Part shown: positions 1 through 16,322 of the stretch, piece by piece
Layout: each line of letters begins with the position of its first letter
Numbering within the stretch: the first letter of the stretch is position 1
From: Oscillospiraceae bacterium
GTDB taxonomy: Bacteria; Bacillota; Clostridia; Oscillospirales; Oscillospiraceae
Reading direction: 5' to 3'
NCBI GenBank assembly: GCA_902785905.1
Contig: CADAAM010000001.1
Coordinates: forward strand, 91,320 to 143,561
Length of the DNA stretch: 52,242 nucleotides
Program-made: the position numbers and the translations under genes
Notes under the pieces: model-generated
What the model was told of the DNA's origin: nothing
The model's database searches: none
What the model saw: the letters and a program-made list of their open reading frames with translations, nothing else

Positions 1-1116
1 TCGGTGTTCGGCTCGGCCGGTTATATCAGCAACCGTATGGATCTGGTCGGCGTGTTCAAAACGGCCTCCTATGTCGTCAAGGCTCTTTTTTTGATGACGG
101 CATATCTCCTTCTCCCGCCGCGGGCCTGGTATATGGCGCTGGGTATGCTTGCCGCGGCGCTGCTGTTAGGCGTTTCCGATTTCGGCATCAGCCGGAAGTA
201 TCTGCCCGAAATCACGGTTTCGCACCGGAATTTCTCCTTCGGCGCCGTCAAACAGCTTGTGCTGAACGGCTTCTGGGCCTCCTTCAATATGGTGGGGGAT
301 ATTCTCAACAGCGGACTTGACCTGCTCGTCTGCAACCAGATGCTCACCAATCTGGAAATGGGTCAGCTTGCGATTGCAAAAACCATGCAGACCATCATGC
401 AGGGCGTATACTACATTGTCAATCAAACCTTCATTCCGCGTTTTCTCAAGACTTACGCCACTGACGCGCCGGGAAAAGTGATTTGGGAGCTGAAGCTCGC
501 CATGAAGGTTTCCGGCATGCTGGCAAATGTGATTTTTGCCTGCTTTGCGGCTTTCGGGCTTGCGTTTTACAAACTCTGGATTCCCGAGCAGGACATCCGT
601 GTGATCTATGTGCTGACGATCATCACCATTCTTACATGCATTCCCAGCGGCCCCATGCAGCCGCTTTACTATATCTATACGCTTACCCTCAAGCAAAAGC
701 TGCCCTGCTTCATCACCGTGATCGGCGGCCTGATCAATGTGGCGAGTATGTACCTTCTCATACGATACGCCGGGATGGGCGTATATGCCGTGGCCTGGAC
801 GACGGTGGCGGTGATGTGCTTCATCAACTTTGTCACAAATCCCCTCTACATGGCGTATGTGCTGCATATGCCGCCCTCCACCTTCTACCCCGACATTCTG
901 CGAAACGTACTCTCCTGCGGCGTGTTGACCTCCCTCTTCTGCGGTCTGAGCCGTCTTTATATGCCAGACAGCTGGCTGACGCTTATCCTTTTCGGCGGCT
1001 TCTGTGCGCTGTTCGGCGCACCGCTGCATCTGCTGATCGTATGCAGCAGAGACCAGTTGGGAGCGTTGAAGGCTCTTGTCAGGCGTGCGCCCAAATACAA
1101 GGAGGAGAATAAATGA
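1..1116 (+). CDS. Polysaccharide flippase (Wzx/MATE-like), 5' end outside window
   Basis: The frame is open from the first base, so the true start lies upstream; 371 codons are visible. The protein is almost entirely hydrophobic helices separated by short basic loops, including a conserved-looking stretch around NQTFIPRFLKTYA. This is the pattern of polysaccharide-repeat flippases (MVF/Wzx fold), which move lipid-linked repeat units across the cytoplasmic membrane. About 12-14 helices are usual, so roughly the last two thirds are present. Its stop overlaps the next glycosyltransferase start by ATGA, so the two are translationally coupled. The neighbouring glycosyltransferases and sugar transferase support a role in exopolysaccharide export. 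Substrate is unknown. Confidence 0.82.
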   Translation, partial: SVFGSAGYISNRMDLVGVFKTASYVVKALFLMTAYLLLPPRAWYMALGMLAAALLLGVSDFGISRKYLPEITVSHRNFSFGAVKQLVLNGFWASFNMVGDILNSGLDLLVCNQMLTNLEMGQLAIAKTMQTIMQGVYYIVNQTFIPRFLKTYATDAPGKVIWELKLAMKVSGMLANVIFACFAAFGLAFYKLWIPEQDIRVIYVLTIITILTCIPSGPMQPLYYIYTLTLKQKLPCFITVIGGLINVASMYLLIRYAGMGVYAVAWTTVAVMCFINFVTNPLYMAYVLHMPPSTFYPDILRNVLSCGVLTSLFCGLSRLYMPDSWLTLILFGGFCALFGAPLHLLIVCSRDQLGALKALVRRAPKYKEENK

Positions 1117-2207
1117 AGCTGCTGATGCACCGCATCAACCGGACGGACAAAAATGTACACCTTCAGAGAAACATCGAGATGTTCCGCAGGCTTGGCATTG
1201 AGGTCAGGGACGTCTATAATGACGATCTGCTGCGCGGAGATCTCTCCGGCGCCGACGCCATCTGTCTCAACTGGTTTGAGAACATCGACGGCGGGCAGGC
1301 CTTTATGCCCCCGCTGCGCTATGCCAGAAGACTTTTGCAGCTTCACCGGATCAAAAAGGCCGGGCTCTCCCTGCTCTTCTATATGCATAACCGCTTTCCG
1401 CACAACCCGCGCTATCCGAAGCTGAGCCGGGCGCTGTACCACAGGCTGGCAAAGCAGGCCGACGTGATCCTCACCTTTTCCGAGGAGACCGGTGCGGGAC
1501 TTGAGGAGCTGTTTCCGGGCGAGGGCTTTGGGGAGAAGACCGAGGTCATCCGCCCGCTCAACTACATTGGGGCGTATCCGTCCAATCCGGGCGCGCCCTC
1601 CTATGAAACAAGAAAAAAAAATGCCGGAAAGCTGCTGGTCTGCTTTCTCGGCAAGATTTCACCGTATAAAAATGTTGAACTCATCATCCGGGCCGCGAAG
1701 GAGCTGGCGCACAAGGACATCGCCTTCCTGATCTGCGGGGAGCCGGTCTCCCCGGAATACCGCGCGAAGCTGGAGGCGCTGGCTGCCCCCTGCAAGAATC
1801 TGAGCGCGGATTTCCGTCTGATCCCGGATTCCGAGATGGCGGCGATCCTCGACGTATCCGATCTGCTGGCCATGCCCTACGATACCCGGAGCGCCGCAAA
1901 TTCCGGTACCGGGCGTCTGGCCTTCTCCTACGGACGCAGCGTCATCACGCCCGATATTCCCTCCATGAACGCGATCCCCGAAGCGCTGATCTATAAGTAT
2001 CATTACGACAGTCCGGACGAGCACTATGAAATATTCCTTTCTGCGCTGAAACGCGCCTATGCCGACTGGCAGCATGATCCAGAACTACTGCGCGAAAAGG
2101 GCCGGGCGCTGAAACAGCTGATGGAGACGGATTATTCCGTGGAAGCCATCATGGAGCAGTACCGGGAAATCTTTCGTCGGCTGGCGGACAAGCGGCGCTC
2201 ACGCTGA
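1113..2207 (+). CDS. Glycosyltransferase, GT4-like (GT-B fold)
   Basis: 364 aa. GGAGGAG lies 6 bases before ATG 1113, which overlaps the flippase stop. The N-terminal half carries the receptor domain (RINRTDKNVHLQRNIEMFRR). The second half begins around residue 190 with the typical LLVCFLGKISPYKNVELII strand-loop of GT-B nucleotide-binding domains, followed by LICGEP and the donor-site region NSGTGRLAFSYGRSVITPD. It is therefore likely to add one sugar from a nucleotide donor to the lipid-linked repeat on the cytoplasmic face. Donor and acceptor cannot be read from sequence. It is followed 21 bases later by the adenylating enzyme, in an apparent operon. Confidence 0.85.
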   Translation: MKLLMHRINRTDKNVHLQRNIEMFRRLGIEVRDVYNDDLLRGDLSGADAICLNWFENIDGGQAFMPPLRYARRLLQLHRIKKAGLSLLFYMHNRFPHNPRYPKLSRALYHRLAKQADVILTFSEETGAGLEELFPGEGFGEKTEVIRPLNYIGAYPSNPGAPSYETRKKNAGKLLVCFLGKISPYKNVELIIRAAKELAHKDIAFLICGEPVSPEYRAKLEALAAPCKNLSADFRLIPDSEMAAILDVSDLLAMPYDTRSAANSGTGRLAFSYGRSVITPDIPSMNAIPEALIYKYHYDSPDEHYEIFLSALKRAYADWQHDPELLREKGRALKQLMETDYSVEAIMEQYREIFRRLADKRRSR

Positions 2208-2228: not shown

Positions 2229-3713
2229 ATGCGAAATATTTTGACCCAATTTGAAGCGACAGCCGCGCGGCTGCCGGAGAAGAGAGCGATCGCGGATCAA
2301 AGCGAGAGCTTTACCTTTGGGCAACTGCGGGATCTTGCCCGCCGCGTCGGCGCGGCGATCGGGACAGGCGAGAAAAACCGCCCCGTCGGTGTCTTGGCCG
2401 CTCGGGATATCCGCACGCCTGCCTTCTTCCTCGGGGCGCTGTACAGCGGGAATTACTATGTACCCATCGACCCCGACATGCCGCCGGAAAAGAAGCAGGC
2501 AATTCTGGACGAAACGGGAATGACCGTCATCCTCGGCACGGAGGAAAACCGCGCCCTGCTTGAAGCTCTGCGCTTTGACGGGGTCTATCTCACGCAGGAC
2601 ATGCCGGATTCGGAATACGCCGCTCTGCCGGACGTCGGGGACAACGATCCGCTCTACATGGTCTACACCTCCGGCTCCACGGGCAAGCCCAAGGGCATCC
2701 TCAAGAGCCACCGGGCAGAGATCAGTTATATTGAAACCTGCTGCGATTATTTCGGCCTTTCCGAAGACGAGGTGATCGGCAATCAGACGCCCTTCTTCTT
2801 CGACGCCTCGGGCAAGGATCTGTATATGATGATCTGGCTCGGCTGCACGCTGGAGATTCTGCCCACCAAGCTCTTCTCTTTCCCCACTGAGCTGATGGAA
2901 TACATGAACGAGCGGCGCGTCAGCTTTATCTCCTGGGTGCCGACCGCCATCTCTATCGTCGCGCAGCTCAATCCCTTCTCCCTGGTGAAGCCGGAATATC
3001 TGAAACGTGTCTTCTTCGTCGGCGAGGTCATGCCCATGAAGTATCTCAACAAATGGCGGCGCGCCCTGCCGGAAATCCAGTATGTGAATCTCTACGGACA
3101 GTCTGAGCTTGCGGGTGTGTGCTGCTGCTTTGAGGTGCGGGGCGAGTGGGACGACAAGGCGGTGCTGCCCATGGGCAAGCCGCTGCCAAACTGCCGGGTC
3201 TATCTGCTCGACGGGGAAGCCGTTGTTCAAGAGCCCGGCCATATCGGGGAGCTCTATATCGTCAGCGACGCGCTGGCCTTGGAATACTTCCGCGATCCGG
3301 AGAAGACCGCCTCTTCCTTCCTCACGAAGGACTTCGGTGAGGGCATGGTGCGCTGTTTCAAAACCGGCGACATGGCCCAGTACGACGGCGAGGGAAATCT
3401 GGTTTTCGCCGCGCGGTCGGACTTTCAGATCAAGCACATGGGGCGGCGCATCGAGCTCGGCGAGATCGAAGCCATCGCCACGACGCTTGATGAGATCAAA
3501 ATGTGCTGCTGTCTGTATAACCCTGAGAAGCAGTGGATTTACCTCTTTGCGGAGCTGTCGGACGGATACGCGCTCAGCGGTCAGGAGCTGCGCAGCATTC
3601 TGCGGGGAAAGCTGACGGACTACATGCTGCCGCGCAAAGTCGTCATTCTGGATAAAATGCCCCTGAGCCCCAACGGAAAATTGGACCGGCAGACGCTCAA
3701 GGGGCGGATGTAA
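2229..3713 (+). CDS. Amino-acid adenylating enzyme, DltA-like
   Basis: 494 aa from ATG 2229, chosen over an in-frame ATG at 2211 because AAGGAG (2214-2219) is spaced for 2229. It shows the adenylation-domain motifs in order: the P-loop-like YTSGSTGKPKG near residue 146, FFFDASGKDLYM with Asp192, NLYGQSEL, FKTGDMAQYDGEGNLVF, the hinge region SDFQIKHMGRRIELGEIEA, and C-terminal SPNGKLDRQTL with the catalytic Lys. In DltA and NRPS domains the Asp of the FDxS motif binds the substrate alpha-amino group, so an amino acid substrate is likely. It would activate the amino acid with ATP and load the carrier protein encoded next. The order here is A-C-B-D instead of canonical dltABCD, and the setting is a polysaccharide locus, so the target may not be teichoic acid. 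D-Ala specificity is not proven. Confidence 0.85.
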   Translation: MRNILTQFEATAARLPEKRAIADQSESFTFGQLRDLARRVGAAIGTGEKNRPVGVLAARDIRTPAFFLGALYSGNYYVPIDPDMPPEKKQAILDETGMTVILGTEENRALLEALRFDGVYLTQDMPDSEYAALPDVGDNDPLYMVYTSGSTGKPKGILKSHRAEISYIETCCDYFGLSEDEVIGNQTPFFFDASGKDLYMMIWLGCTLEILPTKLFSFPTELMEYMNERRVSFISWVPTAISIVAQLNPFSLVKPEYLKRVFFVGEVMPMKYLNKWRRALPEIQYVNLYGQSELAGVCCCFEVRGEWDDKAVLPMGKPLPNCRVYLLDGEAVVQEPGHIGELYIVSDALALEYFRDPEKTASSFLTKDFGEGMVRCFKTGDMAQYDGEGNLVFAARSDFQIKHMGRRIELGEIEAIATTLDEIKMCCCLYNPEKQWIYLFAELSDGYALSGQELRSILRGKLTDYMLPRKVVILDKMPLSPNGKLDRQTLKGRM

Positions 3714-3727
3714 GAAAGAAGGAGCGA

Positions 3728-3961
3728 ATGATGGAAGAACTTCTCGAAATTTTACAGGACATCAATCCCGACGTGGATTATGAAACCGAGGACAATCTCA
3801 TCGACGGCAAGGTGCTCGACTCTCTGAGCATCATACAGATGATCAATGAGATCTGCGAGACCTTTGATATTGAGATCGGTCCCAAGTGGATGCGCAATGA
3901 GAACTTCAACAGCGCACAGAAGATCTGGGACATGATCCAGGCAATCCGGGAAGAAGAGTAA
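3728..3961 (+). CDS. Acyl/aminoacyl carrier protein, DltC-like
   Basis: 77 aa, acidic, with AAGGAG just upstream of two adjacent ATGs (3728, 3731). The phosphopantetheine attachment motif is VLDSLSII with Ser32. The following helix (QMINEICETFDIEIGPKWM) and the later NSAQKIWDMIQ resemble DltC more than fatty-acid ACP. It should carry the activated amino acid as a thioester from the upstream adenylating enzyme to the downstream MBOAT protein. It lies 14 bases after the adenylating gene and 6 bases before the MBOAT gene. An alternative is a carrier for a non-amino acyl group. Confidence 0.87.
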   Translation: MMEELLEILQDINPDVDYETEDNLIDGKVLDSLSIIQMINEICETFDIEIGPKWMRNENFNSAQKIWDMIQAIREEE

Positions 3962-3967
3962 AGCTGC

Positions 3968-5572
3968 ATGTCGATCACGAGCTTTTCATTTTTCTTCTTC
4001 GTCTGCGCGGTGCTCCTGCTCTATTTCCTTGTTCCGCGAAGATTCCAGTGGGTCGTGCTGCTCATTGCAAGCTGTGCCTTTTACCTCTCTTACGGGGCGC
4101 AGTACATCCTCTATGTCCTTTTTACCTCTGTCACCGTGTATTTTGCCGCGGTTTACATGCAGGGGATCACGGACAGGCAGCGCGCCTGGCTCAAGAGTGA
4201 GGGCAGGACGCTTGAGAAGGAAGAGAAAAACCGCGTCAAGGCGCAGAACAGAAAGCTGAAAAAGCGCGCCATGCTCGCTGCGCTGCTGGCAAATCTCCTT
4301 GTTCTCTGCGTGTTCAAATACGCCCATTTTGCCATCGAGCAGCTCAACGCCGTGCTTCGTTTTCTGCGCGTACAGCCCATTGAGGACCGGCTCCGGCTGA
4401 TCGCCCCGCTCGGCATTTCCTTCTATACCTTCCAGATGATCGGCTATCTGGTGGACGTGTATTGGGATAACGTGAAGGCGGAGCGGAATTTTTTCAAGAC
4501 ACTGCTCTTCTGTTCCTTTTTCCCGCAGATCACCCAGGGCCCGATCAGCGAGTTTGGGAACCTGGCCGAGCAGCTTTTCGCCGAGCATGAATTTTCCTAT
4601 AAGAATTACTCCTGGGGCATGCAGCGCATGTGCTGGGGTTTCTTCAAGAAGATGGTGATCGCCGACACCCTGGCCCCGCTGGTGGCGGACGTGTTTGCCC
4701 ACTATGGCTCGTATGCCGGTATTACCACGCTCATCGGCGCCTTTCTGTACAGCATCCAGATCTACACCGATTTCTCCGGCTATATGGACATCATGTGCGG
4801 CCTATGCGAAGTCATGGGCATCCGCCTGACCGAGAACTTCGAGCGGCCGTATTTTTCCAAGTCCGTCGCCGAATACTGGCGGCGCTGGCATATCAGCCTC
4901 GGCGTGTGGTTCAAGCGTTTCATCTATTATCCTATCGGCATCTCCAAATGGAACCGCAGTCTCGGCAAGGTCTCCCGGGAAAAATTCGGGAGGAAGTTCG
5001 GCGACATGCTGCCCGCTTCGGTGGCGCTGGTGGTGGTTTGGCTGGCCACCGGTCTCTGGCACGGGGCGAGCTGGGCCTACATCGTCTGGGGTCTGGTCAA
5101 CGGCCTGTTCATCATCCTCGGCCTCTGGCTCGATCCCGTCTATGCCGCCTGCCGGGCAAAGCTCCATATCAACGAGAACGCCCGGCTATGGCGCGTGTTT
5201 CAGACGCTGCGCACCTTCGTCCTCGTCACCTTTATCAAGGTGCTGCCGGAGGTGGGTACGCTCTCCGAGGGGTGGGGACTCTGGATGCGCATTTTCACGA
5301 ACCATGAAATTCCGGGCAGTTTGCAAAAGCTTCTCCCCTTCCTTGACTGGTCGTCTCTGTTTACCCTTTCGCACTTTGGCATGGCCATGCTGGGAACCGT
5401 CTGCCTCTTCTTCTTTTCGCTGATCGAGCGCCGCCGCCCGGTACGCAGCTATACCGAGAAGTGGCCGATGCCCCTTCGGGCGGCTGCGCTGGGATGCCTG
5501 TTTTTCCTGATCTTTACCTTCGGCATTCAAAACAGTTGGGAAGGAGGCGGATTCCTGTATGCGCAATTCTAA
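3968..5572 (+). CDS. MBOAT-family acyltransferase (DltB/AlgI-like)
   Basis: 534 aa, about 10-12 membrane helices. Diagnostic features are LGISFYTFQMIGYLVDVYW, the FFPQITQGPI segment, YWRRWHISLGVWFKRFIYYPIG, and the catalytic histidine in GLWHGASWAYIVWGL. This is the DltB/AlgI/PatA branch of membrane-bound O-acyltransferases. In the Dlt system DltB takes the aminoacyl group from the carrier protein and passes it outward; in alginate systems AlgI passes acetyl groups. The adjacent DltA-like and DltC-like genes argue for an aminoacyl donor. Its 3' end overlaps the SGNH gene by 14 bases. The start at 3968 has only a weak AAGAAGAG and probably relies on coupling. Confidence 0.9.
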   Translation: MSITSFSFFFFVCAVLLLYFLVPRRFQWVVLLIASCAFYLSYGAQYILYVLFTSVTVYFAAVYMQGITDRQRAWLKSEGRTLEKEEKNRVKAQNRKLKKRAMLAALLANLLVLCVFKYAHFAIEQLNAVLRFLRVQPIEDRLRLIAPLGISFYTFQMIGYLVDVYWDNVKAERNFFKTLLFCSFFPQITQGPISEFGNLAEQLFAEHEFSYKNYSWGMQRMCWGFFKKMVIADTLAPLVADVFAHYGSYAGITTLIGAFLYSIQIYTDFSGYMDIMCGLCEVMGIRLTENFERPYFSKSVAEYWRRWHISLGVWFKRFIYYPIGISKWNRSLGKVSREKFGRKFGDMLPASVALVVVWLATGLWHGASWAYIVWGLVNGLFIILGLWLDPVYAACRAKLHINENARLWRVFQTLRTFVLVTFIKVLPEVGTLSEGWGLWMRIFTNHEIPGSLQKLLPFLDWSSLFTLSHFGMAMLGTVCLFFFSLIERRRPVRSYTEKWPMPLRAAALGCLFFLIFTFGIQNSWEGGGFLYAQF

Positions 5573-6590
5573 ACGGGTACTGCTTTCGGCGCTGTGCTTC
5601 TTGCTGACCTTCGCCCTGATCGCGGGACTCAGTCTCGGGCTCTATTACGGCTCGGAGACCCTGATTATCATGGACGCGAATCTGCGGGCCTCTCTCGCCG
5701 GGAGTCTGGACCGGTTAATGATCGGCTCCTCCCATGCATGGAACGGCTTTGCTCCCGCCATATTCGATGAGCGGCTGCACAGCAGCACCTATAATCTCTC
5801 GGGCGGTGTCTTTCCCATGTATGCCAAGCGCTATTTTCTGGAAAAGGAGCTTGGGCGCAATCCGCTCAAGGTCGTGTATATTGAGCTTTCCGACGACACC
5901 CTGACCCGCACGAATGAGCGGGACTATGCCGAGGGGGACGAGATCGCCATTGCGCGCCTCGACTCCTGGGGGGAACGGTTCTCCTATATGAGGCAGTTCC
6001 TGCGTTTTGAGGACTGTGTCAATGTCTATTCCCGCGCGCTCCTTCGGGGTTTCCAGGCTGCAGCCGCGATCCTGCGGGGCAAGAGCACCATGGACTACGC
6101 CGCCCGCGGCTACTATGCCAAGAGCGGCACAGACGTGAGCATGACACCCGATGAGGCGGAACGGAGCCGCGGTGTTGACCGGATCTCTCCGGCGGACTAC
6201 AGGCCGGAGAACATCGATCAGCTCACCGCCCTGCTGCAGATCTGCCGGGATGCCGATGTGCAGCCGGTGATCGTGGTGCTGCCCGTATCGGACAAGCATC
6301 TGTGGAAGACGGAGGGCGAGGAAGACTGCCGCCTCTGGCTCGAATCGTTCTGCCGGGAGCAGGGCTGCCCCTTCTACGACTTCAATCTTCTTCGTGACCG
6401 TTACGAGCTTTTCTCGGACAAGGAATCCTTCCGGGACGGCGGACATCTTTGCAGCCGCGGAGCCGAGACCTTCACGGCGGTTTTTGCCGATCTGATGGAT
6501 AAAGCGGAACGGGGCGAGAACATAGACGGCTGCTTCTTTGACAGCTATGACGAGCTGCTGCGGCAGTCGCCCTATCTGCCCGCCGCCTGA
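5559..6590 (+). CDS. Membrane-anchored SGNH-like protein (DltD/AlgX-like role)
   Basis: 343 aa. One N-terminal helix (residues 7-30) anchors an extracytoplasmic domain. The nucleophile block reads MIGSSHAWN (Ser57/Ser58) and the distal Asp-His block reads RDGGHLCSRG (Asp293, His296), a catalytic set compatible with the SGNH fold shared by DltD and AlgX/AlgJ. A strong GGAGG precedes ATG 5559 inside the MBOAT gene. By analogy it would complete transfer of the group delivered by the MBOAT protein to the glycan outside the cell. Whether it is a DltD orthologue or an independent SGNH transferase cannot be settled by eye. It closes the operon before a shared terminator. Confidence 0.75.
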   Translation: MRNSKRVLLSALCFLLTFALIAGLSLGLYYGSETLIIMDANLRASLAGSLDRLMIGSSHAWNGFAPAIFDERLHSSTYNLSGGVFPMYAKRYFLEKELGRNPLKVVYIELSDDTLTRTNERDYAEGDEIAIARLDSWGERFSYMRQFLRFEDCVNVYSRALLRGFQAAAAILRGKSTMDYAARGYYAKSGTDVSMTPDEAERSRGVDRISPADYRPENIDQLTALLQICRDADVQPVIVVLPVSDKHLWKTEGEEDCRLWLESFCREQGCPFYDFNLLRDRYELFSDKESFRDGGHLCSRGAETFTAVFADLMDKAERGENIDGCFFDSYDELLRQSPYLPAA

Positions 6591-6642: not shown

Positions 6643-8127
6643 TCAGTTCTTTTTCTTCATCATGCCGATGTAGAGACTCAGCGTACGGAGCAGGCCGCGT
6701 GTCTCAATGCGGCAGCCAAGGCGTTTGAGCTTGTGCGCCAGGATTTTCAGAATCGTCTGATCCGGCACGGTGTTCTTCCCGAATGGGACGTCCGCGATCG
6801 CCGGACAGGCAAAGCGTATGATACGCGCCTGGTGCTCCTTTACGATTCTCTCCTCACGGGGGAATTTCAGCAGCATGGAGATCAGCAGACGGCAGTTGGC
6901 AGGCTGCAGCGAAACAGTGTGCTCAAGAAGGTCAAAGCCGTCTTCAATGGCGGAGAGCCAGCAACCAGCCCGCTGCTCCCAGTAGAATGCGTCGCAGGGG
7001 GCTAGCCCCGGCCTGGAGACATGTTTCTGCCAGTCAAAGTATTGATCGAGGGATTGTTTCTCCCTGGATTTCTCCGGCACACAGAACCAGTCGCAGAAGT
7101 CCTCCTTCGGTCCGCTGCCGTCAAAGGACCGGCCGTAAAACTCCACAGCTGTCTCCCATATGGAGCCTCGCAGCAGCGCCGTCTCGCCATAGGGTGCGGC
7201 CAGCTCCTGATACTGACCGTGCGCATAGAAGAGTCGGTCGGCATCGCGGATCAGTCCTGCCGTATGCCGCAGATATTCATCCTCCAGCTCGGCCGAGTAA
7301 CGGCTGTGATCGCGTGGGATAAAATGGTGCTGCGTGCCGGTAAGACGGCAGAGCTCCTTTGGCAGCTCCGTATCTTCCAGATAGATACCGTCATACTCCA
7401 GGGTATAGGCGTCAAAATCCAGGCCCGCATATTTAGCCAAAGCAAAGAGAGTGCGGGAATCGTAGCCGCCTGTCAGCGCCAGCAGAAATGTATGCTCCGG
7501 CAGCTTCTCCCGCATATTGCGCAGGGAGTTTGCGAAGACGTCGGCAAAGACGCGCACGCGCTCCTCCTCATCGGCGACGTCGGGGCAGGCATGCGCAAGC
7601 AGCGGACGCAGACGCGTCTCCCCGCTGTCGAAGCAACAGATCTGACTCGGCATAACGCGCGTGATTTCCGGATAGGGCGTCAAAGGCCCGGGCATCCAGT
7701 TCATGACCTTGCCGGGCTCGTAGATTTTTGTGTCCAGTTCCATCGCTTCGGCCAAAAGCGTCAGGCTGCAGGAGACGCCCGCCGCAGAGCGGAAGACCGG
7801 CATCAGCCCGCAGGCGTCAAGGAAGACGCGATCACCGCATATCAGCACATAGCGGCCGCACCAGCTCTCCTCCAGCTCCATGAGCCGGTCATCCTTGAGA
7901 GGGCCTTCGCAGCACTCCGACAGGGCTTCCAGCTCCCGCTCGGGAGATGCCTTCCCCGGCAGCGTCTGCCAGGCCAGACCGAGCAGCAGCACTTCGTGCT
8001 TTGGCAAATAAAACACTCTCAGCGCTTCATGACAGCTCAGCACCCATCCGCCTGACAGCGGAAGCGTCCGGAAGCCGGGCAGGGTGAGCGGTTTTTTCAG
8101 GATTACAAATTGACCGGGGTACGGCAT
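6643..8127 (-). CDS. Asparagine synthetase-like protein lacking the glutaminase cysteine
   Basis: 494 aa; start ATG 8127 with AGAGGTG upstream. The protein begins MPYPGQ, not the MCGI of glutamine-dependent enzymes, so the N-terminal nucleophile is absent. The Ntn-like fold is still suggested by CGRYVLICGDRVFLDACGL near residue 90. The synthetase half contains the pyrophosphate-binding loop as LLALTGGYDSRTLF, which corresponds to SGGxDS. It should adenylate a carboxylate with ATP, but would need free ammonia, another amine, or glutaminase help in trans. It is transcribed toward the Dlt-like operon and shares a terminator with it. Possible roles are amide formation on a uronic acid or a dedicated ligase. 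Function is not assigned. Confidence 0.72.
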   Translation of the reverse strand: MPYPGQFVILKKPLTLPGFRTLPLSGGWVLSCHEALRVFYLPKHEVLLLGLAWQTLPGKASPERELEALSECCEGPLKDDRLMELEESWCGRYVLICGDRVFLDACGLMPVFRSAAGVSCSLTLLAEAMELDTKIYEPGKVMNWMPGPLTPYPEITRVMPSQICCFDSGETRLRPLLAHACPDVADEEERVRVFADVFANSLRNMREKLPEHTFLLALTGGYDSRTLFALAKYAGLDFDAYTLEYDGIYLEDTELPKELCRLTGTQHHFIPRDHSRYSAELEDEYLRHTAGLIRDADRLFYAHGQYQELAAPYGETALLRGSIWETAVEFYGRSFDGSGPKEDFCDWFCVPEKSREKQSLDQYFDWQKHVSRPGLAPCDAFYWEQRAGCWLSAIEDGFDLLEHTVSLQPANCRLLISMLLKFPREERIVKEHQARIIRFACPAIADVPFGKNTVPDQTILKILAHKLKRLGCRIETRGLLRTLSLYIGMMKKKN

Positions 8128-8455: not shown

Positions 8456-8607
8456 GCTGTGAAAGCGCTGCTTCCACAGTAATAAATTGATTAAAGCGCG
8501 TGCTTCTCGCCCCTTACGGGGCAACCGAATCACATGCGCAAAAATCCCCATGCGAATGCTTTCATGTGTCGTGGCGCGATTTACAGCGCATGGGGATTTA
8601 ATCAGTA
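8456..8607 (+). repeat. Dispersed structured repeat, family R, copy 1
   Basis: About 152 bp, related to 34976-35130 (same orientation) and 36980-37131 (inverted). It contains three hairpins in order: CTGTGAAAGC/GCTTCCACAG, GCCCC-ttac-GGGGC inside a longer GTG..CAC stem, and an outer AATCCCCATG/CATGGGGATT pair closing a conserved core with GTCGTGGCGCGATTTACAG. It ends 38 bp before the next gene start, so it may lie in that gene's leader. Confidence 0.8.
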
Positions 8608-8645
8608 AACACTATGAATGGATAAGCATCCGGAGGATCAGGGAA

Positions 8646-11600
8646 ATGTCCGCACAACGGCGAAACAGGAGAATACGGTTCGGGTATATAAATCTGCGGT
8701 GGCCGCTGTGCGTTCTGGCTGTACCGGCGGCACTGCTGAGCGCGCTGAGCATCAGCGTGTTCTGCTGCATGCGCGCTCTCCCCGACGTCGAAAAATACTA
8801 CAGCGGGGAGCTTTCCGGCCTGCTGAAGCACAGTCTTTCGTTCGGCACACTGGTGCTGGCGGCGGGCCTTTGGTTGTTCTATTTCTTCGCCTTCCACGCA
8901 ATCCGCTGGCGGCATTTGAGCGGCGCGGCGGTCGCTCTGACGCTTGCTTTCAACATGCTGGTGTCGCTGTCCATGGAGCACAGCTCCCTGCGGGAGCTTC
9001 TCCTCCCCTGCGGTCCGGTTGGCAATACCGCCGTACTCCTGGGCTTCGCGCTGCTCATCTATACATGCATGGAGCTTATTTTCCTGCGCTGTGACGACAA
9101 GACCCGTTACCGGATCTGGCCGGATGCCGCTGACGGCCTGCAGATCTTTTTTGGCGCGTTCGCCTGTATTCTGTTGCTCTGGCTGCCGATTCTGTACTGC
9201 TGCTATCCCGGCAGCGTACACAATGACACCCGCTACCAGATCATGGGCTGGCTGGGGCTTGTACGGATCACGGCGTCTCACCCGATCCTGACGACAGTGT
9301 TTTACGGCGCGCTGTATCAGCTGGGCAACATGATCGGCGGGCAGGAGAAGGCCATCTTTCTGTGCCTGCTCTGCCAGGATCTGGCGGTCTCCGCCGCCAT
9401 GGCTCTTGCCGCGCTGTATGTCTACCGTTATACGCGCTCGAAAAACTGGTACTGGGTGACGATCGTTTTCTTCGGTCTGCTGCCCGTGTGGCAGAGCGCC
9501 GCGCAGGTTCTGCTCAAGGATGTGCTGCATACCGGCTGCTTTCTGCTTTTCGTGTGTGTGTATCTCAACTGTCTGCGCAAGCGGGAAAAAAGCTGGCGCA
9601 ACGTGTTGCTGCTGTTTCTGTCGGCCGTCCTCGTGGCCTATACCCGTAAAGCGACCTTCTATCTCGCGGTAATCGGCATCATTGTGATCGCGCTCTGGCA
9701 TTGGCGGACCTTCCTGCTGCCCTATCTTGCGATGCTGGGGGTCTTTGTCAGCCTCTTCTGGTTCAGCAACAACATCCTCTATCCCCGTCTCGGCATCACA
9801 AAGGAATGGGAGAGCGATAACTACAGCCTGCAGTTCCAGCAGGTTGCCCTTTACTGCCGTACCTATAAGGACGAGATGAGCATTGACGAAATCGCCACTG
9901 TCGACAGCACGCTCGATTTTGACGCGATCGTGCGGGATTATACGCCCATGATCTCCGACCCGGTCAAGGGCACCTATATTGATGACGGGACTGACCACGC
10001 CGAATTCTGGCAGCTCTATCGCAAGATGTTCCGCCGTCATCCCATGCTTTTCGTGAAAGCCGCTGTCATGGGCTCCTTTGAGCATTTTAATCCCTGGATC
10101 GAAGATATCAGTTACAATGTCTATATCTCCCGGGAAGACGACTTCCTCACGGTCGATTACAGGAGCGGACTGCACACTACGCTCAACCAGCTGTGGCTCG
10201 ACTGTCTGAAAATTCCGGTGCTCCGCCTGTTTCTCGGAACCGGCCTGTACGCCTGGGTTCTGCTGTTCGCCATTGCCTACTGCGTCCGGAAGAAATCCTG
10301 GCTGGCTTTTTTGGGGCTTACGCCTTCCGTCGTGCTCATGCTGGGGCTGCTGATGAGCCATGTCAACGGCAATATCCGTTACGGCTACCCGCTCATTGCC
10401 GCGGCGCCGCTGAACGCCGCGTGGGTACTGTACGCGGTATCCTGCCGGTCACCGGAAAATCCGAACGCCGCCGCGTCGCGCCTTGAGGAACGCGAGCCCT
10501 TCCACTTTATCCTTCGCCCCATGACGGAGGATGAGCTCAGAGAAACCGAGTTTGATCCCGGCCAGCCGCCTTCCGAGCTGCCGCCGGAGGAAAAAACTGT
10601 CGGCGATACGGGCAAGGAAAAGCGGCCCGGCCCAGTTCTCCGCTTTTTAACGCGCTTTATCCCCATTCCCAAAACGCCCAAAACCTATCTGGATGTGCTG
10701 AAGGTGCTGGCGATCTTCCTCGTGCTGTGGAACCACACCGATACCGGTTTTGATCTCTATAACCGCGTGCTCGACATGCCGCAGCATATGCTGTACCTGT
10801 GCTTCTCCATCTTTGACAAGATCGCCGTGCCGCTGTTCTTTATGTGCTCCGGCGCGCTGCTGCTGGGGCGGGAGGAGAGCTGGCGGAAGCTGCTCACCCA
10901 CCGCGTACGGCGCTTCGCGCTGATCCTGCTGATCGTATCAGCGATCAACTACCTCCAATATTACAACGACAGTTCAAGATTCTCCTTCTACGACTTTATC
11001 TCCCGCCTTTATACCGGCTCTGTTCGCACACCGCTCTGGTACCTCTATGCCTACCTCGCGTTTTTGCTGTCGCTGCCGTTTCTGCGCAAGCTCGCCCGCT
11101 GCATGCGCGATCAGGATTATATCTGGCTGCTGGGATTCTTTATCGTGACGCAGCTTCTCAGTGTTGTTGACTTTTTCTGGTTCCAGGGGGAGAACTACCA
11201 CAGTTCCGATTTTCGCTTCTTTACCAGTCAGAACTATGTCGTCTACTCCCTGTTCGGCTTTTACATTGAGCGTGTCATGAAGAAGGAACGCCTGAATATG
11301 GAAACGCTCACGGTGCTTGTCATGCTCAGCGCCCTCTCTGTCGGAGCTACCTATCTGCTGACGCAGTGGCGCATGGCATACCTCCATGTCTGGACGTCCA
11401 GCAACTCCCAGGCCTTCCTTAATACCTTCATTGCTGTTCCGAGCATTACAGTATTCTTCTTTGCAAAGCTCTGGTATACCCGCCACCCTGTCTCGGAACG
11501 CGCGGCAGCCAGGTGGGCTCTGCTTTCCGCCGGCACCTTCGGCACTTATCTCTTTGAACGCTTCTGGCGCGACAACACCGAGGCGGTCTTCGACCTTTTG

Positions 11601-11867
11601 TACGATAAGCTCGGTTCCTTCGGCAGTTCTCTTGTTCATATTCTGGCTGCCTGTGCGCTCGGCATTGCGATGACGCTGCTGTACAAGCTCGTGACCGGTA
11701 TCATGAAGGCCGCCTTTCAGGGTAAGAAGTTCTCTGCCCCACGTGTCGTCAAGCGGGAAAAGCCGGAACCGACCTACACCGTGCCGACAGAGGACATCTC
11801 CGATCTGGAAGAGATGGAGACGCTTCTGGTCGGGAGACACCGCGGCCGGGACGGACAAAATCCATAA
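8646..11867 (+). CDS. Large membrane protein: multi-helix N-terminal region fused to acyltransferase-3 domain
   Basis: 1073 aa from ATG 8646, chosen because GGAGG (8632-8636) precedes it; upstream in-frame codons run into repeat family R. Residues 1-600 hold about 12 helices plus an extracytoplasmic loop region, with motifs such as SVHNDTRYQIMGWLGL and VLLKDVLHTGCF; this resembles GT-C-like or DUF6020-type membrane proteins. A charged E/P-rich linker covers about 605-675. From residue 679 (TYLDVLKVLAIFLVLWNH) to about 1040 it is an acyltransferase-3 domain with the family histidine, VPLFFMCSGALLL and TPLWYLYAYL. The C-terminal tail is acidic. Such domains O-acylate (often acetylate) surface sugars. 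The fusion may couple sugar transfer to acylation. The N-terminal assignment is tentative. Confidence 0.78.
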   Translation: MSAQRRNRRIRFGYINLRWPLCVLAVPAALLSALSISVFCCMRALPDVEKYYSGELSGLLKHSLSFGTLVLAAGLWLFYFFAFHAIRWRHLSGAAVALTLAFNMLVSLSMEHSSLRELLLPCGPVGNTAVLLGFALLIYTCMELIFLRCDDKTRYRIWPDAADGLQIFFGAFACILLLWLPILYCCYPGSVHNDTRYQIMGWLGLVRITASHPILTTVFYGALYQLGNMIGGQEKAIFLCLLCQDLAVSAAMALAALYVYRYTRSKNWYWVTIVFFGLLPVWQSAAQVLLKDVLHTGCFLLFVCVYLNCLRKREKSWRNVLLLFLSAVLVAYTRKATFYLAVIGIIVIALWHWRTFLLPYLAMLGVFVSLFWFSNNILYPRLGITKEWESDNYSLQFQQVALYCRTYKDEMSIDEIATVDSTLDFDAIVRDYTPMISDPVKGTYIDDGTDHAEFWQLYRKMFRRHPMLFVKAAVMGSFEHFNPWIEDISYNVYISREDDFLTVDYRSGLHTTLNQLWLDCLKIPVLRLFLGTGLYAWVLLFAIAYCVRKKSWLAFLGLTPSVVLMLGLLMSHVNGNIRYGYPLIAAAPLNAAWVLYAVSCRSPENPNAAASRLEEREPFHFILRPMTEDELRETEFDPGQPPSELPPEEKTVGDTGKEKRPGPVLRFLTRFIPIPKTPKTYLDVLKVLAIFLVLWNHTDTGFDLYNRVLDMPQHMLYLCFSIFDKIAVPLFFMCSGALLLGREESWRKLLTHRVRRFALILLIVSAINYLQYYNDSSRFSFYDFISRLYTGSVRTPLWYLYAYLAFLLSLPFLRKLARCMRDQDYIWLLGFFIVTQLLSVVDFFWFQGENYHSSDFRFFTSQNYVVYSLFGFYIERVMKKERLNMETLTVLVMLSALSVGATYLLTQWRMAYLHVWTSSNSQAFLNTFIAVPSITVFFFAKLWYTRHPVSERAAARWALLSAGTFGTYLFERFWRDNTEAVFDLLYDKLGSFGSSLVHILAACALGIAMTLLYKLVTGIMKAAFQGKKFSAPRVVKREKPEPTYTVPTEDISDLEEMETLLVGRHRGRDGQNP

Positions 11868-11883: not shown

Positions 11884-13017
11884 ATGAAGCTTGCGATTCT
11901 CTGCACAATGATGAAGCGCTTCGGCATGAAGGGCTTTTATAACAGCCAGGAGATCGGTCTCGGGCGGGCGCTGGCCGAGATGGGACACACGGTCATGATA
12001 TACAAGGGCGTCAAGGATCGGAAACAGGCCGAGACCATCGAGATTCAGGACGGGCTGACCATCCGTTATATGTTCATGCCCTACTTTGGGGCGCACGGCT
12101 GGTTCTTCCCTTCCCTGCTGGACAAGGATCTGGACGGGCTGTTCTGCTTTGCGGATCAGCAGATTTTTCTCCCGCACGTCGCGGCCTGGTGCAAACGGCA
12201 CGGGATCGTCTTTGTCCCCTATGTGGGTACCACCTACAGCCTGTATGTCAACACCCTGCGCGGCAGGGTCATGGATACGGCCTTTGCCTGCACGACGCTG
12301 CGGTTGTATAAAAGGATTCCCATTCTCGCCAAGACAGAGGCCGCCAAAAAGGAGCTGGAAGCCCTCGGCGTGGACGGAAGCCTCATCTCCCTCGCTCCGG
12401 TCGGGTTGGACACGGGCGTTTTGAAAAAGGACTTTCTCGAAGCCGACCGCGCCGCGCTGCGCCGGGAGCTGGGCTTCGAGGAGGACGATGTGATCCTTTG
12501 CAACGTCGCGCGCCTTGAGGAAGACAAGCGCCCGTTCGATCTCCTGAAGGTCTTCATGAACACCAGAGACAAGAAGAAATTCCGCCTCCTGATGGTGGGC
12601 AAGGGTGCGCTGCGTCAGGCGGTGGATCAAAAGATTGTGGAATACGAGATCGGGGACAAGGTGAAAATCTTTGACCGGGTCCCGTATACGGACATGTGGA
12701 AAATCTACACGGTTTCGGATTACTACCTGAACATGAGCGAGGTGGAAATTTTCGGCATGGCCATCATGGAGGCCATGTATTACCGCTGCTCTGTGGCGGC
12801 GCGGCGGGCAATCGGCCCTTCGCTCACGCTCAAGGGGATGCGTGGCCACAAGCTCTGCGACAGCGACGCGGAGATTGAGGACTGGATCACCGGTCCTTAT
12901 CCCCCGGAGGAGGAGCTTGCAGAGAGCGCGGAAAAGATCGTCACGGATTTTTCGTGGAGACCTTGCGCGAAAGCCTTTATTCAGCAGATCGAAGCGCAAA
13001 TGGCGCGACGGGGGTGA
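11884..13017 (+). CDS. Glycosyltransferase, GT4-like
   Basis: 377 aa from ATG 11884 (MKLAILCTMMKRFGMKGFYN), 16 bases after the preceding gene. The N-terminal domain has an acceptor-side loop at GFYNSQEIGLGRALAEMGH. The C-terminal GT-B domain shows CNVARLEEDKRPFDLLKVF, LLMVGKGALRQ and the donor-binding EVEIFGMAIMEAMYYRC (E-x7-E-like motif of GT4). It probably adds one sugar to the repeat unit inside the cell. It is followed 7 bases later by an asparagine synthetase and appears to be in one operon with it. Confidence 0.85.
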   Translation: MKLAILCTMMKRFGMKGFYNSQEIGLGRALAEMGHTVMIYKGVKDRKQAETIEIQDGLTIRYMFMPYFGAHGWFFPSLLDKDLDGLFCFADQQIFLPHVAAWCKRHGIVFVPYVGTTYSLYVNTLRGRVMDTAFACTTLRLYKRIPILAKTEAAKKELEALGVDGSLISLAPVGLDTGVLKKDFLEADRAALRRELGFEEDDVILCNVARLEEDKRPFDLLKVFMNTRDKKKFRLLMVGKGALRQAVDQKIVEYEIGDKVKIFDRVPYTDMWKIYTVSDYYLNMSEVEIFGMAIMEAMYYRCSVAARRAIGPSLTLKGMRGHKLCDSDAEIEDWITGPYPPEEELAESAEKIVTDFSWRPCAKAFIQQIEAQMARRG

Positions 13018-13024
13018 AATTGAT

Positions 13025-14857
13025 ATGTGCGGAATCTGCGGATTTTACGATCCGGACAAAAAACTGCCGGAGAAGGCGGCGCTGCTTCAAAAAATGAACG
13101 CGGCGCAGAAGCACCGCGGCCCCGATGACGAGGGCGTCTATCTGGACGGGCCGGTCGGCCTCGGACATGTGCGGCTGTCGATCCTGGATCTCTCCAGCGC
13201 GGGACACCAGCCCATGCACTACGGGGATCGCTATACCGTCGTATTCAACGGTGAGATCTATAATTATATCGAGTTGCGCGAGGAACTTGCCAAAGCGGGC
13301 TATATCTTCCGCACCAACTGCGACACCGAGGTTCTGCTCGCGGCCTACGATCACTGGGGCGAGGCCTGCCAGACCCGCTTCAACGGCTTCTGGGCCTTTG
13401 CCGTTTATGATAAGCAGACCGGGGATCTCTTCCTCTCCCGCGACCGCTACGGGGTCAAGCCCCTGTATTATACGGAACTGCCCGGCTATCTGCTCTTTGC
13501 TTCTGAGATCAAAACACTGCTGACGGACAGGCGTGTGAAGCGTATCGCCAATGACGCGGCGATCTTTGACTATCTGGTCAACGGCTTCGTCGACTGCACG
13601 GAGGAGACCTTTTTCGACGGTGTTTATCGTCTGGAGGCCGGCTGCTGCATGCGCCTGAACCCGGAAGGGGAAAAACAGATCCGCCGCTATTACGAGCTCC
13701 CCTACCGCGAGAGCCTGGTGGAGCCGGTGGGCTGCACGATGATCCGGGAATTCCGGCGGCTCTTTGAGCAGTCCATCGCGCTCCGTCTGCGGGCGGACGT
13801 GCCGGTGGGAAGCTGTCTGTCCGGCGGGCTGGATTCCTCCGCCATTGTATGCGAGAGCAATCGGCAGCTTCGCGCCATGGGCGGCGGAGACGGTCAGCAG
13901 ACCTTCTCCTCCTGCTATGCAGGCGATCCGAACGACGAACGGAAGTTCATGGACGCCGTTATCGGGAAGACCGGCGTAAACGCGCATTTTACCTATCCCA
14001 CAGGCGACACGCTGTACGAAGATCTGGAGCATCTGATCTACACGCAGGACGAGCCCTTTGTCTCCACCAGCATGTACGCCGGTTACTGCGTGATGCGCCT
14101 GGCCCACGAAAACGGGGCCAAGGTGCTGCTGGACGGGCAGGGCGCGGACGAAATCCTCTGCGGCTACCGCAAAGCGCGCGTTTATTACATCAAGCGCCTG
14201 CTCGGAGCGAAGCGCTTCGGCCGGGCTTCAAGGGAACTGATTGCCTATCTGCCGTACATGCGCAAGGGAAAGAATGTCTCCCTGCTCGCCGATCTGAACA
14301 TGATCCGCCAGTTTCTGGGCAAGACCAGCAGTACGGATATCCGCCACCGCTATCTGGAGGACAGCTTCGCCAAAAGGACGCTGCGAGACAGCTATCGGGA
14401 GAACGACCGCTTCCTGCTCAACGACTTTGACCGCATCGTGCTTCCGGCGCTGCTTCGCTATGTGGACCGCAATTCCATGGCCTTCTCCATTGAAGACCGG
14501 CTGCCCTTCCTGGACTTCCGCCTGGTGGAATACGCGATGAATCTGCCGCTCAACGCGAAAATCGCGGACGGCTACTCCAAGGCCATCATGCGAAAGGCTT
14601 TGGATATGCCGGAGATCATCCGAAAGCGCCGCGACAAGATCGGCTTCTACACCCCGGAGAAAGCCTGGATGGATGCTCACCTTGACGAGTACCGCGCCGT
14701 CTTCGAGAATCCGGATTTCCGAGCCGGACGCTATATCAATTCCGCGAAGATCTTAAACGACTGGGACAGCCTGACCCGCGGCATGGACGATATCGGTCTG
14801 TTCCGCTATATCTGTCTGGAAAAGTGGATGCATGTTTTTGACGTGCAATCAGCCTGA
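13025..14857 (+). CDS. Glutamine-dependent asparagine synthetase-type amidotransferase
   Basis: 610 aa from ATG 13025, which gives the mature MCGICGF with the nucleophilic Cys2 of class II glutaminases. N-terminal residues 1-230 contain HRGPDDEG, GHVRLSILD and FNGEIYNY; the synthetase half has SCLSGGLDSSAIV and later YVDRNSMAFSIEDRLPFLD. It transfers ammonia from glutamine to an adenylated carboxylate. Located between two glycosyltransferases, it may amidate a uronic acid (as known for the AsnB homologue WbpS in O-antigen synthesis) and not make asparagine. That substrate is inference. Confidence 0.88.
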   Translation: MCGICGFYDPDKKLPEKAALLQKMNAAQKHRGPDDEGVYLDGPVGLGHVRLSILDLSSAGHQPMHYGDRYTVVFNGEIYNYIELREELAKAGYIFRTNCDTEVLLAAYDHWGEACQTRFNGFWAFAVYDKQTGDLFLSRDRYGVKPLYYTELPGYLLFASEIKTLLTDRRVKRIANDAAIFDYLVNGFVDCTEETFFDGVYRLEAGCCMRLNPEGEKQIRRYYELPYRESLVEPVGCTMIREFRRLFEQSIALRLRADVPVGSCLSGGLDSSAIVCESNRQLRAMGGGDGQQTFSSCYAGDPNDERKFMDAVIGKTGVNAHFTYPTGDTLYEDLEHLIYTQDEPFVSTSMYAGYCVMRLAHENGAKVLLDGQGADEILCGYRKARVYYIKRLLGAKRFGRASRELIAYLPYMRKGKNVSLLADLNMIRQFLGKTSSTDIRHRYLEDSFAKRTLRDSYRENDRFLLNDFDRIVLPALLRYVDRNSMAFSIEDRLPFLDFRLVEYAMNLPLNAKIADGYSKAIMRKALDMPEIIRKRRDKIGFYTPEKAWMDAHLDEYRAVFENPDFRAGRYINSAKILNDWDSLTRGMDDIGLFRYICLEKWMHVFDVQSA

Positions 14858-14873
14858 GGGAGGTCGGAAAGCA

Positions 14874-16079
14874 ATGGAAAAAGAGAGAAAAATCCTGATC
14901 ATCGTGGAAAACCTGCCCGTACCCTTCGATACCCGCGTCTGGCAGGAGGCTGTCACCCTGGCGTCGAACGGCTACACCGTCTCCGTGATCTGTCCGGTCG
15001 GCAAGGGCTATACGGCGGAGGAGGAGACGCTGGACGGCGTACATATTTTCCGCCACACGCTGCCGCCCGAAGGCAACGGCGCCATCGGTTATTTCCGCGA
15101 GTACGGTTCGGCCTTGCGTGAGGAGCTGCGGCTGGCGAAAAAGATCTACCGGGAGATCGGCTTTGACGTGATCCACGGCTGCAATCCGCCGGACGATATC
15201 TATATGGTCGCCTCCCGCTTTAAAAAGTACGGCGTAAAATACGTCTTTGACCACCACGATATCTGCCCCGAGCTTTTCGAGGCAAAATTCGGCAGCACGA
15301 AGGGTCTTCTCTACAAGAGCCAGGTATGGCTGGAGCGGCAGACCTACAAGCACTGCACCTTCGCCTTTGTGACCAATGAGAGCTACCGTAAGATCGCCAT
15401 CGAGCGCGACCGTATGCCGCCCGAAAGGGTGATCGTTCTGCGCAGCGGGCCGAAGCTGGAGCGTCTCAAGCAGCTCCCGCCGGACCCCTCCATCCGCCGC
15501 GGCTATCCCTATATGGCGGGCTACCTGGGCGTGATCGGCCAGCAGGAAGGCGTCGAATACATCCTGCAGGCAGCGCAGTACATCAAGGAGCGGGAGAATA
15601 ACGTCTTCTGGGGCATTGTCGGCGGCGGCCCGCACCTCGAGGCCATGAAAAAGCAGGCCCATGCCATGGGCCTGGACGACTGTGTGGAGTTCACCGGGCG
15701 CGTGCCGGACGATCAGATGCTGCGCTATCTGAATACGGCGGATGTCTGCGTCAACAGCGACACCTATAATGCCATGAATGACAAGAGCACCATGAATAAG
15801 GTGCTGGAATACATGGCGTTGGGCAAGCCCATCGTGCAGTTCGACCTGACCGAGGGGCGCTACTCCGCGCAGGAGGCCTCGCTGTACGCAAAGAGAAACG
15901 ACGCTGCCGACATGGCGGAAAAAATCCGTCAGCTTCTGGCTGATCCGGAGCTTCGTGAGCGCATGGGCCGCTTCGGACACGAGCGCATTGTCAACGAGCT
16001 GAGCTGGGACAACACCAGCAAGGCCCTTCTTGAAGGTTACGAAAAGTTCTTCACCGGGCAGTTTGATACTCTTTCCTGA
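14874..16079 (+). CDS. Glycosyltransferase, GT4-like
   Basis: 401 aa from ATG 14874 preceded by GGGAGG. The N-terminus KILIIVENLPVPFDTRVWQEA is a hallmark of the WbuB/WcaL-type branch of GT4. The donor domain has GYLGVIGQQEGVEYILQA, GIVGGGPHLEAM and LEYMALGKPIVQFD. It adds a sugar to the repeat unit in the cytoplasm. This is the last gene of the plus-strand run that starts at 8646; a hairpin-rich gap follows, then the convergent asparagine synthetase. Confidence 0.87.
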   Translation: MEKERKILIIVENLPVPFDTRVWQEAVTLASNGYTVSVICPVGKGYTAEEETLDGVHIFRHTLPPEGNGAIGYFREYGSALREELRLAKKIYREIGFDVIHGCNPPDDIYMVASRFKKYGVKYVFDHHDICPELFEAKFGSTKGLLYKSQVWLERQTYKHCTFAFVTNESYRKIAIERDRMPPERVIVLRSGPKLERLKQLPPDPSIRRGYPYMAGYLGVIGQQEGVEYILQAAQYIKERENNVFWGIVGGGPHLEAMKKQAHAMGLDDCVEFTGRVPDDQMLRYLNTADVCVNSDTYNAMNDKSTMNKVLEYMALGKPIVQFDLTEGRYSAQEASLYAKRNDAADMAEKIRQLLADPELRERMGRFGHERIVNELSWDNTSKALLEGYEKFFTGQFDTLS

Positions 16080-16238
16080 TCAAATTCTTTCATCAGGAAA
16101 GCCGCTGTTCCTGCGGCGTTCTCAGCGTGAAACGCCGAACACTCTTCTCATACAAGAATCTCTGCGCGCCTTATGGCGCTATGAAAATGTTTAAGGAATT
16201 AACAGTTTTCATGAGGTTCCGGTATGACTGATAAAAAG

Positions 16239-16322
16239 CATGTCATCCTGAACGTAAGCAATGGATCTTTCCGCCGGTATACGACGGGGCAAAAGATTCT
16301 TTGCTTCGCACAGAATGACACA
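16239..16322. repeat. TGTCATYCTGA-type palindromic intergenic repeat
   Basis: Imperfect inverted repeat: the left arm starts TGTCATCCTGAACGTAAGC and the right arm ends with the complement of TGTCATTCTGTGCGAAGC. It belongs to a repeat style seen widely in Firmicutes genomes. It lies with other short hairpins (GCCGC/GCGGC near 16103, GGCGTT/AACGCC near 16115) in the 276-bp gap 16080-16355. Confidence 0.7.

Follow-up and report, generated by a model that had tools for sequence, protein, structure and literature searches.

The question raised by this locus is whether four adjacent genes beside exopolysaccharide genes form an ordinary dlt operon or another pathway for acylating a secreted polymer. 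The genes lie within a stretch of 52,242 nucleotides of contig CADAAM010000001.1 of an Oscillospiraceae bacterium, and this whole stretch is called the window. They encode an amino-acid-adenylating-type enzyme (A), a carrier protein (C), an MBOAT (B) and an SGNH-type protein (D). The cassette is probably a carrier-fed, DltX-less MBOAT-SGNH acylation pathway that places an amino acid on a secreted sugar polymer; as part of that reading, the front half (amino acid, AMP, carrier) would be Dlt-like and is likely to feed a Pat-like back half.

The first-pass annotation, made from the sequence alone, had claimed a tight A-C-B-D order behind a glycosyltransferase gene, and the open reading frames (ORFs) confirm this order: 14 bp separate A from C, 6 bp separate C from B, and B and D overlap by 14 bp (Table 1). 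The residues that it named are present, namely Asp192 of A, Ser32 of C and the GLWHGASW motif of B, which contains His365. Its proposal of Dlt-like chemistry holds in part. The logic of adenylation, carrier, MBOAT and SGNH protein stands, but the proteins are not DltA, DltB, DltC or DltD by family models, and the transfer step resembles that of PatA and AlgI, with FLYAQF fused to B and no DltX in the window.

Carrier and fused tail

As described in the excerpt of PMC12148441, DltB takes the acyl group from the carrier and passes it to DltX, a microprotein with an FXYXXF end whose Tyr is the recipient. In the other MBOAT/SGNH pathways covered there, no carrier is used, the donor is evidently acyl-CoA, and the motif is fused to the MBOAT on two additional transmembrane helices; the Tyr-tail mechanism was demonstrated in PatA. 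The scheme of that 2025 paper implies that a carrier donor does not occur together with a fused tail. The scan of the window for ORFs ending in F-x-Y-x-x-F found B alone, and no separate DltX-like ORF. The identical scan of a canonical dlt control (L099; L numbers denote loci) found a separate DltX-like ORF ending in FIYNGF, and the DltB of that operon ends in FSGRLLK. The carrier gene lies directly 5' of B, an arrangement conserved among the family loci, and B carries FLYAQF; carrier and fused tail therefore co-occur here. No published account of an MBOAT that is both carrier-fed and tail-fused was found in the open-licence literature.

The AlphaFold2 (AF2) model of B has a mean predicted local distance difference test (pLDDT) score of 88, and its helices include residues 464-486 and 501-525, followed by a flexible tail with pLDDT below 50. 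Its top match in the Protein Data Bank (PDB) is DltB (6bug, E 1.3e-11, template-modelling (TM) score 0.71 on the target). The DltB family model aligns to B only as far as residue 422 of 534 (model position 371 of 380), and both helices, which are hydrophobic, lie beyond this point. B is thus predicted to have two extra C-terminal transmembrane helices relative to DltB, as judged from the end of the model match and not from a superposition. The resemblance to the PatA-PatB and AlgI systems includes these two helices, the FxYxxF tail, the conserved His and an SGNH partner with an N-terminal hydrophobic segment. The difference is that the cassette encodes a ligase and a carrier, and that those pathways have no carrier protein and evidently draw on acyl-CoA according to PMC12148441.

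No Pfam match was found for D. Its AF2 model (pLDDT 94.9) has DltD (6o93) as the top PDB match, with E 3e-6 and a TM score of 0.36. Over the DltD chains as a whole the TM score is 0.34-0.47 of the query, and further matches are to SGNH-type hydrolases, among them TesA-type enzymes, and to PatB. The model suggests an SGNH fold with its own elaborations. A single hydrophobic segment spans residues 7-25.

Alignments of the four proteins were made from rows chosen for completeness, a subset of the loci. Asp31-Ser32 of C is invariant in 26 aligned rows, Phe529, Tyr531 and His365 of B in 34, and Ser58 and His296 of D in 33. The ratio of nonsynonymous to synonymous substitution rates (dN/dS) against L029 and L030 lies in the range 0.12-0.14 for A, B and D, and for C it is lower, at 0.02-0.05; the synonymous rate exceeds 1 in six of the eight comparisons, and these values are therefore rough. 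The genome encodes an AcpS-type transferase.

Distribution of the family

Relatives of B in GTDB contigs make up 46 loci. The full A-C-B-D order is present in 24, a count that includes L039 (A as a fragment), L065 (B in two frames), L069 (an extra gene between A and C) and L063 and L067 of pocket class II (see below). One locus has A-C-B at a contig end, five have C-B-D, 13 have B-D and three have B alone. Among the 13 B-D loci, A-C follows D in L040 and lies divergently upstream in L045, and L028, at the end of its contig, begins within B. The A profile (E ≤ 1e-120) has matches in 59 of the 394 genomes searched in the order, 15 of the 102 in the genus and 13 of the 398 in the phylum; each count includes the genome under study. 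This distribution is patchy, as for a mobile module. The order search gave 62 A matches, of which 30 were taken as loci. A second retrieval covered 20 stretches, and 18 of these belong to the 30 loci. All four genes are present in 17 of the 20, and one each has A-C-B without a detected D, A-C, and A only. A Y-x-x-F end was found on each of the 18 MBOATs. The A-C-B adjacency is repeated in different pocket classes. Chance adjacency of the four genes was rejected as an explanation, as the order recurs across pocket classes and loci and the dN/dS values are low.

An MBOAT tree of 85 rows was built by a quick method without bootstrap. Frames shorter than 470 residues, or shorter than 440 when counted from the first Met, were excluded along with duplicates, and the paralogue L074 of the genome is absent from it. 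A carrier match within 1.5 kb (carrier profile, E ≤ 1e-4) was found for 56 rows; a carrier that is divergent or lies farther away is scored as absent, and for many loci the flank is only 1.5 kb long. Each of these 56 MBOATs ends in Y-x-x-[FY], and 46 end in a strict FxYxxF. A single branch of 70 rows (Shimodaira-Hasegawa-like approximate likelihood ratio test 93) contains all 56, together with 13 rows without a carrier and one undetermined. Apart from DltB, 14 rows lie outside the branch; no carrier was detected for them, and three are MBOATs of this genome. The position of the control DltB is uncertain because its branch is very long. Among the 27 rows for which no carrier was detected, 13 have an F[IV]YF[QNR]F end; Phe follows the Tyr in none of the 56 carrier-adjacent rows.

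Some variants of the cassette were also seen. In L069, a GNAT-type protein (1737-2549) is encoded between A and C. L047 (1-13717) has two MBOAT-SGNH sets about 3 kb apart, each with its own carrier gene, and a glycosyltransferase gene between them. In L070 and L072, the family MBOAT lies by a cytidylyltransferase-like gene without a detected carrier; in L070 an SGNH gene and a CDP-glycerol glycerophosphotransferase-like gene also adjoin it.

Proposed pathway

A would adenylate an amino acid with ATP and load it, in thioester linkage, on the phosphopantetheine carried by Ser32 of C, which would present the aminoacyl group to B at the cytoplasmic face. His365 of B may then help the transfer of the acyl group to Tyr531 in the extracytoplasmic tail of B itself. 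The tail would pass the group to Ser58 of the membrane-anchored D, and D would form an ester between it and a hydroxyl group on a surface glycan, most simply the exopolysaccharide of the surrounding locus. We infer the catalytic steps, the identity of the amino acid and the acceptor from the sequence. In the AlmEFG system for lipid A glycylation, AlmG is an LPLAT-type (lysophospholipid acyltransferase) enzyme; B differs in being an MBOAT. A family that combines a carrier with a fused tail would remove the need for DltX and would be a single-chain version of the Dlt transfer step. It further suggests that acyl groups besides acetate and D-alanine are attached to surface polymers by many Clostridia.

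Acceptor

A Wzx-like gene and a glycosyltransferase gene precede the cassette as a pair, by a few tens of bases, in the window and in its close relatives L027, L029, L030 and L060. The counterpart of the Wzx-like ORF, at the equivalent place in these four loci, is 63-96% identical. The exopolysaccharide setting claimed earlier holds for these five loci, but the distant class I cassettes sampled lie mostly among other genes. The neighbour survey behind this statement covered 17 of the 46 loci, which without three close relatives leaves 14 distant class I loci. From these, 92 ORFs were scanned; six of 98 were left out (four short ORFs and the second MBOAT/SGNH set of L047). Among the matches listed (25 of 147 families; rarer glycosyltransferase families may be missed), there are at least four of glycosyltransferase group 1, at least two of glycosyltransferase family 2, at least three epimerase-type sugar enzymes and at least two nucleotidyltransferases. 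The ten nearest neighbours scanned include a glycosyltransferase gene in L047, a sugar dehydratase-type gene in L065 and a YfhO gene in L038, and the other seven have no clear glycan gene.

An acceptor other than this exopolysaccharide therefore has to be weighed. That the same machinery serves a general envelope polymer (peptidoglycan, a lipoteichoic-acid-like polymer or another wall glycan) has somewhat less than an even chance. The small number of glycosyltransferase matches near the distant class I loci favours it, as does the presence of a DAHP synthase, a lyase, a phosphoesterase and a ChW-M23 protein among the ten nearest neighbours, and the genome has one sulfatase-domain membrane protein that is possibly LtaS-like. 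On the other side are the Wzx-glycosyltransferase pair directly before the cassette in five loci and, among the distant neighbours, the epimerase-type, nucleotidyltransferase, dehydratase-type and YfhO genes and the glycosyltransferase gene of L047. A search for PF04464 (TagF/TagB) also found no match in the genome, the assembly of which (2.73 Mb in 191 contigs) is 85% complete, a limit on all absences reported for the genome. The cassette is the family trait, and exopolysaccharide is the best guess for the sublineage of the window only.

Adenylation pocket and substrate

The ten-position pocket code of the window A is DAKSFVLGVK, in which Asp192 is position 235 and Lys196 is position 239; that of the control DltA is DLLILCLVAK. 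Position 239 is Leu or Met in the two DltAs compared. Cys269 of Bacillus cereus DltA is placed at the pocket floor in the excerpt of PMC4176424, and the window A has Val264 there. By these aligned residues, the pocket is not that of DltA. The first-pass annotation had proposed this comparison with DltA: Asp192 suggests a pocket compatible with an amino acid, but Lys196 and Val264 differ from DltA. Lys196 would fit an acidic or carboxamide side chain better, with the acidic one weakly favoured. Either side chain would make the product zwitterionic or neutral, and the positive charge on the glycan that had been proposed is doubtful for this reason. The nonribosomal peptide synthetase code for glutamate, which we take to be DAKDLGVVDK, has D-A-K in common with the window A and serves as a lead only.

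The pocket was surveyed across the A domains, leaving out those with fewer than 250 model positions and duplicates. Asp235 and Lys239 occur as a pair in 67 of the 78 distinct strong A domains, and every Asp-bearing domain (67 of 67) has the Lys. Ten of the remainder have Ser for the pocket Asp and neither Asp nor Lys, and one (TGMLHGNGPK) looks misaligned. Among the low-scoring A domains, Asp and Lys occur together in one of 14 (L109, a truncated class III domain), and the synthetase domains L078 and L080 of the same genome have the pocket Asp without the Lys. Four pocket classes account for all but a few domains: class I, DAK[SCFL]..LG[VI]K, which includes the window; class II, SM[TSL]YLALDIK; class III, DVK[IV][LM]SLCNK; and class IV, DAKC[AC]GLGMK.

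It is unlikely that A activates a hydroxy, keto or other carboxylic acid, with Asp192 neutralised by Lys196. Asp and Lys are jointly absent in the ten class II domains, so the pair acts as a unit, and the weakly matching A partners by the family MBOATs L017 and L018 have pockets that are not of the amino acid type, though poorly aligned. Against these points, the amino acid adenylation model TIGR01733 is the best of the NCBIfam models for class I (288.9 bits for the window A), a class IV A passes it with 319.6 bits, and an amino-acid-type pyridoxal phosphate (PLP) decarboxylase sits inside the class III cassette.

Class II A enzymes are found in L063, L067, L106, L123, L125, L126, L137 and L140-L142. 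Because both the pocket Asp and the pocket Lys are absent, the group that they load is probably something other than an alpha-amino acid.

In the class III cassettes L152, L159, L161 and L162, a PLP decarboxylase-type ORF lies between A and C. These ORFs score 157-179 bits on the diaminopimelate decarboxylase and TIGR03099 models, under the cut-offs, and PF02784/PF00278 are present in both of those scanned against Pfam. The exosortase-A-associated models TIGR03098 and TIGR03099 resemble the system in having an AMP ligase and in the TIGR03099 scores of the class III decarboxylases, but the window A reaches 157.5 of 592.35 bits and the decarboxylases 160-179 of 478.45. In the PEP-CTERM paper PMC1569441, the words decarboxylase, ligase, acyl and AMP- do not occur. 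According to the excerpt of PMC7857480, BtrK of the butirosin pathway, a PLP enzyme grouped with the diaminopimelate decarboxylases, decarboxylates a glutamyl carrier protein (BtrI), as proposed here for class III. A class III enzyme acting like BtrK would mean that the acid is attached via its side-chain carboxyl and that the alpha-carboxyl is removed; Lys239 could then hold this second carboxyl in the sister class. The butirosin pathway, which includes BtrJ, makes a small molecule, has no MBOAT step and uses another type of loading enzyme. The decarboxylase makes the loaded group of class III predictable and open to assay.

A broader reading is possible, although it falls short of being likely. 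The cassettes may form a separate envelope-acylation lineage on a fused-tail MBOAT backbone, independent of Dlt, in which at least four ligase-carrier pocket classes supply related B-D engines with different loaded groups. With about the same tentativeness, the window would load an acidic amino acid, the PLP class an amino acid that is decarboxylated on the carrier ahead of export, and the Asp-less class a non-amino acid.

Comparison with Dlt

That the cassette is an ordinary dlt operon, D-alanylating (lipo)teichoic acid and merely adjoining exopolysaccharide genes, is very improbable. The cassette is like DltABCDX in that the four activities (adenylating enzyme, carrier, MBOAT and SGNH protein) equal those of Dlt and the top solved folds of B and D are DltB and DltD. 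The equivalog models nevertheless fail: A scores 241.7 bits on TIGR01734 (DltA), where 559.85 are required, C 33.9 on NF003464 (DltC), where 68 are required, and B 148.5 on TIGR04091 (DltB), where 375 are required. On the DltB model, B does no better than the four other MBOATs of the genome (149 vs 148-168 bits). Further differences from Dlt are the shuttle motif on the MBOAT, the order A-C-B-D, the lack of a DltX-like ORF in the window, the pocket with Lys196 and Val264, and the lack of teichoic acid genes alongside. A plain dlt operon was rejected on the family models, the lack of DltX in the window and the pocket. A separate dltABCD elsewhere had also been considered, and a search of the 85%-complete genome found no canonical set, with no match to the DltD family PF04914 and none of 14 ligase matches at the DltA cut-off.

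Weighing of the evidence

Several points weigh against an amino-acid-loading, carrier-fed pathway that acts on exopolysaccharide. A lies below the amino acid adenylation cut-off of 317.4 bits, and the family as a whole is not confined to amino acids because 10 of the 78 strong A domains have Ser for the Asp. Asp293 of D is not invariant, being missing in L030 and L053, for example. The best match to the DltA model in the genome is not A but a 1070-codon frame on contig C23 (271.5 bits); it is taken for part of a multidomain synthetase because of its frame length, and its domain (L078) is one of the two with Asp and no Lys. The case for exopolysaccharide is contextual, given the setting of the distant class I cassettes. 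The chemistry is a prediction from gene order, conservation, motif invariance, predicted folds and the lack of a DltX-like ORF in the window.

The donor also needs an account where A does not adjoin B. A search was made of 13 genomes with such a family MBOAT; L028, L040, L045, L052, L055 and L070-L072 were not included. A class I A is encoded elsewhere in six of them, and there the pieces are complementary. L048, L054 and L056 have C beside B and a distant class I A without a detected C; L046, L057 and L059 have no C beside B, and C adjoins the distant class I A. Four genomes have only an A of another class, often by its own D and once also by B and C, with one split over two contigs, and three have merely weak or synthetase-like A matches. 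The search yielded no class I A as donor enzyme for these seven genomes, which also counts against the pathway.

The idea that B-D is an acetyl-CoA O-acetyltransferase and A-C an unrelated neighbour is the least credible. In its favour, FxYxxF tails are otherwise typical of CoA-fed MBOATs (excerpt of PMC12148441) and 13 of the 46 loci have B-D without A-C directly before it; against it, A-C-B recurs across pocket classes and the tails of carrier-adjacent and carrier-less MBOATs differ as described above.

Other features of the window

The features of the cassette and the two genes before it are given in Table 1.

Table 1. Cassette and preceding genes in the window
Feature	Positions	Strand	Support and remarks
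Wzx-like ORF, cut by the window start	4..1116	+	flippase label from position and the first-pass annotation only
Glycosyltransferase group 1	1113..2207	+	PF00534, E 5.7e-8
A, amino-acid-adenylating-type enzyme, 494 aa	2229..3713	+	Pfam AMP-binding, E 1.2e-60
C, phosphopantetheinyl-type carrier protein, 77 aa, Ser32 (3821-3823)	3728..3961	+	Pfam PP-binding, 3.3e-4
B, MBOAT, 534 aa, catalytic-type His365 (5060-5062)	3968..5572	+	PF03062, E 5.6e-12
Acyl-shuttle tail FLYAQF, B residues 529-534, presumed acceptor Tyr531	5552..5569	+	
D, putative membrane-anchored SGNH-type transferase, 343 aa; Ser58, Asp293, His296	5559..6590	+	fold match

No match was found for the Wzx-like ORF in Pfam or NCBIfam. 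The distance from the end of the glycosyltransferase gene to the start of A is 21 or 3 bp, depending on the start codon, as an in-frame ATG is also present at 2211. Rfam gave nothing at gathering scores in the window, and promoter and terminator scans gave site counts no higher than in shuffles.

On the 3' side of the cassette are a convergent ORF of 494 aa, a DUF6020-AT3 fusion, glycosyltransferases, an asparagine-synthase-like gene, GDP-mannose-type sugar genes and a Bac_transf gene, and the setting of the cassette is regarded as a polysaccharide locus because of these gene types. The convergent ORF (6643-8127, minus strand) is kept adjoining the cassette in L027, L028 and L029. It has no Pfam or NCBIfam match, and a PDB search gave only GMP synthase (E 0.079). 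It contains a TGGYDSR stretch, presumably a PP-loop-like motif, and is possibly an amidating enzyme. The fusion is a single ORF of 1126 aa (8487-11867, plus strand) in which a DUF6020 membrane domain is joined to an AT3 acyltransferase domain; in L030, a longer ORF of 1820 aa (12663-18125) has two stretches that resemble it. A B protein with 98% identity is present in 'uncultured Clostridiales bacterium isolate RUG518', a name in which RUG presumably refers to the rumen.

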